Part shown: one piece after another, positions 22,789 through 24,863 of the stretch
How the letters are laid out: each line of letters starts with the position of its first letter
Numbering within the stretch: position 1 is the first letter of the stretch
DNA from: Aggregicoccus sp. 17bor-14
Lineage (GTDB): Bacteria; Myxococcota; Myxococcia; Myxococcales; Myxococcaceae
DNA: 64,000 bases
NCBI RefSeq assembly: GCF_009659535.1
Contig: NZ_VJZZ01000020.1
Location: forward strand, 1 to 64,000
Direction of reading: 5' to 3'
The notes under the pieces: generated by a model
Seen by the model: only the letters and a program-made list of their open reading frames with translations
Databases searched by the model: none
Told to the model about the DNA's origin: nothing
Translations under genes and position numbers: made by a program

Positions 22789-23718
22789 ATGGCCCGCACG
22801 CCCTCCCTCCAGGACTTCACCCTGCGCCAGCTCGAGTACGTGGTGGCGGTGGCCGACGCGCTCGGCTTCCGCCGCGCCGCCGAGCGCTGTCACGTCTCGC
22901 AGCCCGCGCTCAGCAGCCAGGTGCGCCATGTGGAGGAGGCGCTGGGGGTACAGCTCTTCGAGCGCGACCAGCGCCGCGTGCTGCTCACGGCCGCGGGCGA
23001 GCAGCTGGTGGCGCGCGCGCGCCGCGTCCTGGTGGAGGCGCAGGATCTCCTCGCGCTCGCGCGCGGGCTCGCCGAGCCGCTCAGCGGCCCCCTGCGCCTG
23101 GGCGTCATCCCCACGGTGGCGCCCTACGTGCTGCCCGAGGTGGTGCCGGCCATCGCCCGCGCGCACCCGCGCCTGCGCCTGCTCATCCGCGAGGAGACGA
23201 CGGCGCATGTGGTGCGCGGGCTCGAGGAGGGGCGGCTCGAGGTGGGGCTGCTCGCGCTGGAGGCGGAGACGGGGGGCCTGGAGAGCGAGGTGCTCGCGCA
23301 GGACCCCTTCGTGCTCGCGGCGCCCCCGGGCCACGCGCTCTCGAAGCGCCGCTCCCTGCGCCCGGACGACCTCCACGGCCTGCCCGTGCTGCTGCTGGAT
23401 GACGGGCACTGCTTTCGCCGCCAGGCGCTCGCGCTGTGCAGCCGCGGGGGCGCAGCCGAGGCGGACTTCCGCGCGACGAGCCTCACCACGCTCGCGCAGA
23501 TGGTGGCGAGCGGCGCGGGCGTGACCCTGCTGCCCCAGCTCGCGGTGACGGCGGAGAACCGGGGCGGGCAGCTCGCCACCGTGCCCTTCGCGCAGCCCGC
23601 GCCCGCGCGCACGCTCGCGCTGGTGTGGCGCCCGGGCTACCCCGGCGCCCCCGGCCTGCGCCTGCTCGCGGCCACCCTGCGCGCGGCGTGGCCCTCGGGG
23701 CGCGCGGCGCGCACCTAA
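22789..23718 (+). CDS. oxyR: Hydrogen-peroxide-sensing LysR-type regulator OxyR
   Basis: A 309-residue LysR-family activator. The helix-turn-helix is FRRAAERCHVSQPALSSQVRHVEEALG (about residues 28-54). The sensor domain contains the OxyR signature DGHCFRRQALALC, whose two Cys are nine residues apart as in the Cys199/Cys208 pair of the Escherichia coli protein that forms the peroxide-induced disulfide. The ATG at 22789 has no room for a ribosome site other than the operator-like sequence, so the message may be leaderless. The stop codon TAA at 23716-23718 is built from a TA target duplication plus the first base of an insertion element; before the insertion it would have been TAG with no change in the protein. 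Confidence 0.93.
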   Translation: MARTPSLQDFTLRQLEYVVAVADALGFRRAAERCHVSQPALSSQVRHVEEALGVQLFERDQRRVLLTAAGEQLVARARRVLVEAQDLLALARGLAEPLSGPLRLGVIPTVAPYVLPEVVPAIARAHPRLRLLIREETTAHVVRGLEEGRLEVGLLALEAETGGLESEVLAQDPFVLAAPPGHALSKRRSLRPDDLHGLPVLLLDDGHCFRRQALALCSRGGAAEADFRATSLTTLAQMVASGAGVTLLPQLAVTAENRGGQLATVPFAQPAPARTLALVWRPGYPGAPGLRLLAATLRAAWPSGRAART

Positions 23719-24801
23719 GTCAGTCCTAAGAAGTTCTTGCACAGGTTCGCACGGAGCCTGCGAATCCAGAAGGTGGGCGAGAGGATGCCCGCCTTCGTCA
23801 GCACCTCCTGTGGGGACAGGCTCCAGAGGTAGCTGGCGGTGCGGTCCAGCTCGTCGTCGAGGCTTGCGTACTGGTGGTTGGCCAGCACGTCGCCCTTGGC
23901 GGCCCTCCACAGGTGGTCCATGGGGTTGAGGTGCGGGCAGCGCTTGGGCAGGAAGACGAGGAGGATGAGGAGCTCGTCTGCGAGGCGCTGAGAGGCGCGG
24001 GCGGTGTGGCTGGCGTCCGAGTCCAGGACGAGCACCAGAGGCCCGCGCGGGTGGCGGCGGCGCAGGTGGCGCAGGAAGGCGCAGAAGTCCTCGGCGCGCT
24101 GCGCGGTGCGCGCCAGCAGGTGCACCTCGCCGGAGAGGGGGTCGACGGCGCCGAAGAGGACGCACCTGGCGTTGCGGCCGGTGAGCAGCACCTGCCGGGG
24201 CGCAGCGCCCTGAAGCGCCCAGCAGGCGCGCAGGGGCGGAAACAGCAGCAAGTCCGTCTCATCCAGAAACAGCACGCGCGCCAGGGGAAGCCAGAAGCCC
24301 AGCGTCCAGCGCACTGCGCGCTTTTTTCTCTCGCTCCGGGTCCGGGGCGAGCGTGTAGCGGGGTCGCTTCCAGCGGTAGCCCAGCCGGTGCACCGCCTCG
24401 CGCAGCGTGTCGTCACTGACGCGCGGCGCCCCCTCTGCCTCCAGTTGCGCGCGCAACGTGGCCACCGTCCAGCCCGTGCAGAAGAAGCCGAAGTCTTCGG
24501 GCGAGCGGGCGAGCAGCTGCTGCAGCCTGCGCCGCTGCGCGGCCTGCAGCAGCGGCGGCCGCCCGCTGCGCACTCGGTCCGCCAGCGCCTCGGGCTTCTG
24601 GGCTCGCCACAGCCGACGCAGCCAGCCGTGCACCGTGCTGCGACTCACACCCATCAACGTCGCCACGCGCCCGGGCCGCTCACCCTCCAGCACCTGCAGC
24701 ACCGCCACCAGCCGGCGCGCCAGGCGCGCATCCGGCGTCCCGCGCATCATCCGCCGCACGCGCTCACGCAGTGCGCGTGCCTTCACTCTGTCCGGCACCA
24801 T
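23715..24801 (-). CDS. IS630-family transposase encoded in two overlapping frames
   Basis: The first frame (24801 to 24259, 180 residues from the ATG) carries the helix-turn-helix half: LARRLVAVLQVLEGERPGRVATLMGVSRSTVHGWLRR. The catalytic half is read in the other frame (about 24330 to 23715): VLFLDETDLLLFP, VLVLDSDASH and LNPMDHLWRAAKGDV, giving a DDD-type triad where many IS630 members have Glu last. The frames meet at an A6 run (T6 on the plus strand, 24322-24327), where losing one A, or a +1 shift, joins them. This could be slippage-controlled expression or an inactivating mutation. The stop codon TAG of the catalytic half is formed by the TA target duplication and a flanking base, outside the element. 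Confidence 0.8.
23718..23743 (+). repeat. Left terminal inverted repeat of the IS630 element
   Basis: The 26 bases from AGTCAGTCC to TTGCACA match the reverse complement of 24830-24855 at 18 positions. The adjoining TA at 23716-23717 is the target duplication. Confidence 0.8.
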
Positions 24802-24829
24802 GCCCAACCAGTAGGCACCGGCAGAGTGG

Positions 24830-24855
24830 TGTGCAAAGACTTTCCCGGACCTACT
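24830..24855 (-). repeat. Right terminal inverted repeat of the IS630 element
   Basis: Read on the minus strand, the 26 bases from AGTAGGTCCGGG to TTGCACA pair with the left end. The TA at 24856-24857 completes the target duplication. Confidence 0.8.
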
Positions 24856-24863
24856 TAGCCGCT

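Follow-up and report, generated by a model that had tools for sequence, protein, structure and literature searches.

The closest precedents for the element described here are two insertion sequences, IS630 for its preference for the sequence CTAG and IS870 for a stop codon supplied by CTAG. IS630 of Shigella sonnei reportedly prefers TA dinucleotides that lie within 5'-CTAG-3' (Tenzen et al. 1990; Tenzen and Ohtsubo 1991), and the CTAG target of IS870 is said to supply a stop codon (Fournier et al. 1993). The element that we have analyzed is like the Shigella sonnei IS630 in its family, in the duplication of TA and in its preference for CTAG; it lacks a transposase stop codon of its own, and the likeness to that element rests on family and target. 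With IS870, which belongs to the IS427 group of the IS5 family and not to the IS630 family, it shares the origin of the transposase stop codon, which comes in both cases from the CTAG target. In the available part of a study of ISY100 (PMC2170065), insertion at TA by a cut-and-paste mechanism with duplication of the TA is established for the family, and ISY100 and the Tc1-mariner elements are similar to the present element in this mode of insertion, in the TA duplication and in having an RNase H-fold DDE/D transposase. ISY100 is described there as inserting almost exclusively at TA, and a CTAG requirement as strict as the one found here is not reported in that part of the source (PMC2170065). 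Two other members of the IS630 family, viz. ISAeme16 and an element from Geobacillus, are flanked by C-TA...TA-G in the same manner as the present element, but they differ from it in that the transposase stop codon lies inside the element and the third catalytic residue is E instead of D.

In the present work, we have completed a comparative analysis of an IS630-family element whose insertion point falls precisely within the stop of an oxyR-like gene, for an oxidative-stress regulator, of Aggregicoccus sp. 17bor-14. The window, i.e. the whole stretch of DNA that was analyzed, comprises 64,000 nucleotides (positions 1 to 64,000 of contig NZ_VJZZ01000020.1). Our analyses leave us highly confident that this is an ordinary IS630-family insertion with a protein-neutral exchange of stop codons, whose placement follows from the choice of CTAG by the element combined with the scarcity of CTAG in the genome.

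The Interrupted oxyR Locus

The features of the locus are summarized in Table 1. At the left flank the sequence ...CGC ACC is followed by the TA at 23716-23717, which constitutes, precisely as the original prediction held, the first two bases of the oxyR stop codon; the codon is now completed to TAA by the first base of the element, an A at 23718. At the right flank ...CCTACT is followed by the second TA (24856-57) and a G (24858). The two flanks joined in silico read CGCACC-TAG-CCGCT-TCA, viz. an oxyR stop codon TAG, a spacer of 5 bp and the end of the convergent gene, and the C of the last oxyR codon forms with this TAG the palindrome CTAG. The predicted change of the stop from TAG to TAA, with the former third base left behind as the G at 24858, agrees with both flanks, and we infer from them that the ancestral stop codon of oxyR was probably TAG. 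The OxyR-like protein and its function would, judging from the sequence, be unchanged by the insertion. OxyR is the best NCBIfam model for this LysR regulator, with a score of 282 bits that lies below the model cut-off of 329, and a catalase reading frame is divergent from the gene.

Table 1. Coordinates of the element, its target site and the neighboring genes in the window.
Feature	Positions	Strand	Basis
oxyR-like LysR regulator, 309 aa	22789..23718	+	ORF; PF03466/PF00126
Left copy of duplicated TA target	23716..23717		sequence; inverted-repeat scan
IS630-family element, 1,138 bp, single copy in 6.9-Mb genome	23718..24855	-	sequence, inverted-repeat scan, NCBIfam
Left terminal inverted repeat AGTCAGTCCTAAGAAGTTCTTGCACA	23718..23743	+	inverted-repeat scan
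Transposase OrfB (DDE_3 part), open into left repeat	23715..24416	-	ORF; PF13358; NF033545
A6 run (A6G) in OrfA/OrfB overlap, probable frame-change place	24322..24327	-	sequence, frame comparison
Transposase OrfA (helix-turn-helix part), 180 aa	24259..24801	-	PF13565, PF13551; NF033545 positions 1-134
Right terminal inverted repeat, AGTAGGTCCGGGAAAGTCTTTGCACA as read on - strand	24830..24855	-	inverted-repeat scan
Right TA copy and G (third base of oxyR stop before insertion)	24856..24858		sequence
Convergent gene of the site-specific recombinase family (SpecificRecomb, Gcr-type), 759 aa	24864..27143	-	PF10136, E 4e-192

The event is most simply taken to be ordinary transposition. A CTAG-specific element of the IS630 family would have entered the CTAG at the end of oxyR by cut-and-paste, duplicating the TA, in a GC-rich genome where CTAG is strongly avoided outside stop codons and intergenic stretches. 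On the left side, the two genes would then have traded bases of their stop codons, oxyR passing from TAG to TAA and the transposase gaining a TAG made of the TA and one host base. Because both ends of the element start with A and CTAG is palindromic, an insertion of this kind into a CTAG stop is expected to turn TAG into TAA and to leave the host protein unchanged, whichever strand the stop is on and whichever way the element points.

The insertion has enlarged the gap between oxyR and the recombinase gene from 5 bp to 1,145 bp, in keeping with the increase to more than 1.1 kb that had been predicted, and the transposase, on the - strand, does run convergent to oxyR on the + strand. This separation of two closely spaced genes, the reading of the transposase toward oxyR, and a terminator-like site on the + strand within the element (24308-24322) could suggest that the insertion is adaptive for oxyR, either by insulating it and the recombinase gene from mutual read-through or by altering oxyR through antisense transcription. 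However, the terminator-like sites in the element number only 2, versus 0.5 expected by chance, no promoter-like site was found in the element, and an adaptive role would have to be deduced from the sequence of a single insertion; we consider it quite unlikely.

Identity of the Element

The ends of the element, AGTCAGTCC...AAG..TTGCACA and AGTAGGTCC...AAG..TTGCACA, form imperfect inverted repeats that match at 18 of 26 positions, which is the top score among all of the TA-bounded pairs that were tested. The element thus carries terminal inverted repeats at both ends and has been inserted at a TA that is now duplicated, as is characteristic of IS630, and its OrfB by itself scores 102.9 bits against the IS630-type transposase model NF033545 (cut-off 100). 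Together with the DDE_3 match of OrfB, these characteristics bear out the predicted assignment of the insert to IS630. IS630 is the only NCBIfam match of OrfB, and OrfA additionally shows a weak match to IS481. Membership in the IS5 family, as for IS870, was rejected, no IS5 match being obtained by NCBIfam for either OrfA or OrfB. The D-D-E/D catalytic triad is present: D52 and D132 are invariant, and the third residue is the D of the motif PMDHLW. This third residue is also D in the Myxococcota relatives of the element and in a relative from Microvirga, and E in a planctomycete relative as well as in ISAeme16 and the Geobacillus element. No RNA families were found in the region, and no close copy of the element was detected at the DNA level in 60 relatives or in the genome contigs searched.

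The Transposase Reading Frame and Its Borrowed Stop Codon

OrfB contains no stop codon inside the element. Its reading frame ends at a TAG (23717-23715) that consists of the duplicated TA and the complement of the host base C23715. The oxyR gene and OrfB overlap tail-to-tail by 4 bp, and one junction gives two stop codons on opposite strands, viz. TAA for oxyR and TAG for the transposase. The element thus borrows its stop in the manner of IS870, a likeness of mechanism and not of family.

In the window copy OrfB lies in the +1 frame of OrfA at A6G. The frame arrangement varies among the relatives compared (loci L056, L057 and L060 among them): in most of them OrfB follows OrfA in the -1 frame, at A_AAA_AAG, and in one relative (genome G142) a single continuous frame of 383 codons extends to the target-made stop. 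This frame arrangement, the single copy number, and an A6 run without notable RNA structure (its stability is no greater than that of shuffled sequences; z 0.27) would be consistent with an old and dead element, in which the frame difference between OrfA and OrfB represents an inactivating indel and the copy is a relic. Opposed to this, both frames are open and contain the expected domains, and frame changes, transcriptional slippage among them, have precedents in IS630 elements (PMC5009743, PMC6211511). We give the relic reading somewhat less than an even chance. Programmed slippage and a dead copy would both be possible at the OrfA/OrfB junction, and if the copy is still active, a frame change, probably at A6G, would be needed for the transposase to be made. 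A dead copy is compatible with the explanation of the locus as an ordinary insertion with stop exchange and bears on the present activity of the element only.

Target Choice and Stop Borrowing in Related Elements

A protein search revealed relatives of the transposase in Myxococcota, one of them within the same genome, and a search of 195 genomes for the end pattern of this IS630 group found such ends in 24. A C precedes the TA at all 73 of the element/host junctions (C-TA-G; 55 loci in the 24 Myxococcota genomes), a rule that is counted on relatives only 41-45% identical in OrfB to the window element, which is itself the sole copy of its kind. Full-length copies with settable ends are flanked by C-TA...TA-G without exception (13/13), among them a diverged copy from this very genome. 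This second IS630 copy (contig C10, ~273,457-274,610) likewise lies precisely within a stop codon, viz. that of a Methyltransf_4 (TrmB-like) gene.

The transposase frame stops exactly at position +3 past the element end, with a TAG, in 12 of the 13 full-length copies and in one further locus (L149); the thirteenth copy (L055) is an exception and has an internal stop in its transposase frame. The planctomycete and Microvirga relatives also borrow their stop, so that this characteristic is found in three phyla in all, and it is absent from ISAeme16 and from the elements of Geobacillus and Rhodothermus. Mutual exchange of stop codons seems to be common in this element group.

Three miniature elements of 89 bp (L165, L166 and L167), all in one genome (G105), have the same ends and C-TA...TA-G flanks and are likely MITEs of this IS630 group. 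For one of them (L166), the insertion site is the stop codon of a gene encoding an AraC-type regulator.

Availability of CTAG and Its Relationship to Insertion Sites

The sample for the CTAG background comprised 464 kb from this genome plus 400 kb from two relatives, with genes called by a simple codon-model caller of our own making. The 464-kb part contains 119 CTAG sites, versus approximately 1,143 expected from base composition, which corresponds to a roughly 10-fold depletion. Stop codons account for 71 of these sites (~60%), with another 44 in intergenic positions and 4 inside called genes; in the pooled sample the corresponding numbers are 87, 66 and 18, with 51% at stop codons. Since the group enters only CTAG, which in this genome is found mostly at gene ends, a landing in a stop codon is to be expected, and the remarkable coincidence that the original prediction had implied for oxyR is not upheld.

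At 20 insertion sites both flanks could be read, and 8 of these (40%) are in stop codons, 10 are intergenic and 2 are inside genes. Among 36 one-sided junctions, 9 are at gene ends, versus about 25% expected. Pfam domains were found in 9 of 10 checked host genes that end at an insertion (e.g., DnaJ, GH31, ADP-ribosylglycohydrolase, and the Methyltransf_4 gene at the other copy in this genome). The exact placement of these 8 sites, and of both family copies in this genome, in stop codons might be ascribed to targeting, in which the transposase or a partner recognizes gene ends (e.g., through terminating transcription or the supercoiling between convergent genes) beyond CTAG itself. The share at stop codons, however, does not exceed that of the available CTAG sites in either the pooled sample or this genome, and the insertion sites do not differ from the pooled background (Fisher p 0.48). 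An enrichment in stop codons beyond CTAG availability was rejected on this basis. Because the choice of CTAG is sufficient to account for the share at stop codons, no targeting of gene ends needs to be invoked, and we regard it as very improbable.

The significance of the placement by CTAG choice is that a preference for a four-base target, when the host avoids this target except at gene ends, becomes a near-harmless placement, and this explains how elements of the kind can build up in a genome while leaving its genes intact. The idea can be put to the test in any genome by a simple count, for which the share of CTAG sites that are stop codons (about 60% here) gives the measure. Both of its halves, viz. 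entry at CTAG and the borrowed stop codon, have precedents, and what is gained here is mostly a quantified and clean example. The borrowed stop also carries a warning for annotation: in this group the end of the transposase gene lies beyond the border of the element, and element borders and gene ends should be called jointly. A more general reading, which we put forward tentatively and with real doubt, is that an IS630 subgroup spread over Myxococcota, Alphaproteobacteria, and Planctomycetota has come to rely on CTAG to enter the host DNA as well as to obtain its own stop codon, and that CTAG stops would serve it as a protein-neutral harbor in GC-rich hosts that purge CTAG from genes, each insertion in a stop codon leaving the host gene with TAA in place of TAG and giving TAG to the transposase.

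Empty Sites at Sister Insertions

No uninterrupted copy of the oxyR-gcr locus was found in the genomes searched, all of other genera, the two genes not being adjacent in 18 relatives, and the comparison with uninterrupted relatives that had been proposed was carried out on three sister insertions in stop codons, where CTAG is intact in the nearest relatives. At the insertion in a dnaJ gene (genome G118) CTAG is present in all 12 of the readable relatives. At the L160 site (genome G149) CTAG is uninterrupted in the three nearest relatives, which are 92% identical, and 23 relatives have CTGA, none of them with an insert. At the insertion in an alpha-2-macroglobulin (A2M) gene (genome G142) CTAG is present in 7 relatives. 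These empty sites at the three sister insertions support the reading of an ancestral TAG at oxyR.

The insertion in the alpha-2-macroglobulin stop codon (L155) also parts this gene from a close reading frame in the same direction, the ATG of which lies 10 bases past the empty stop codon. In cases like this one, with the protein unaltered, the expression of the downstream frame could be affected.
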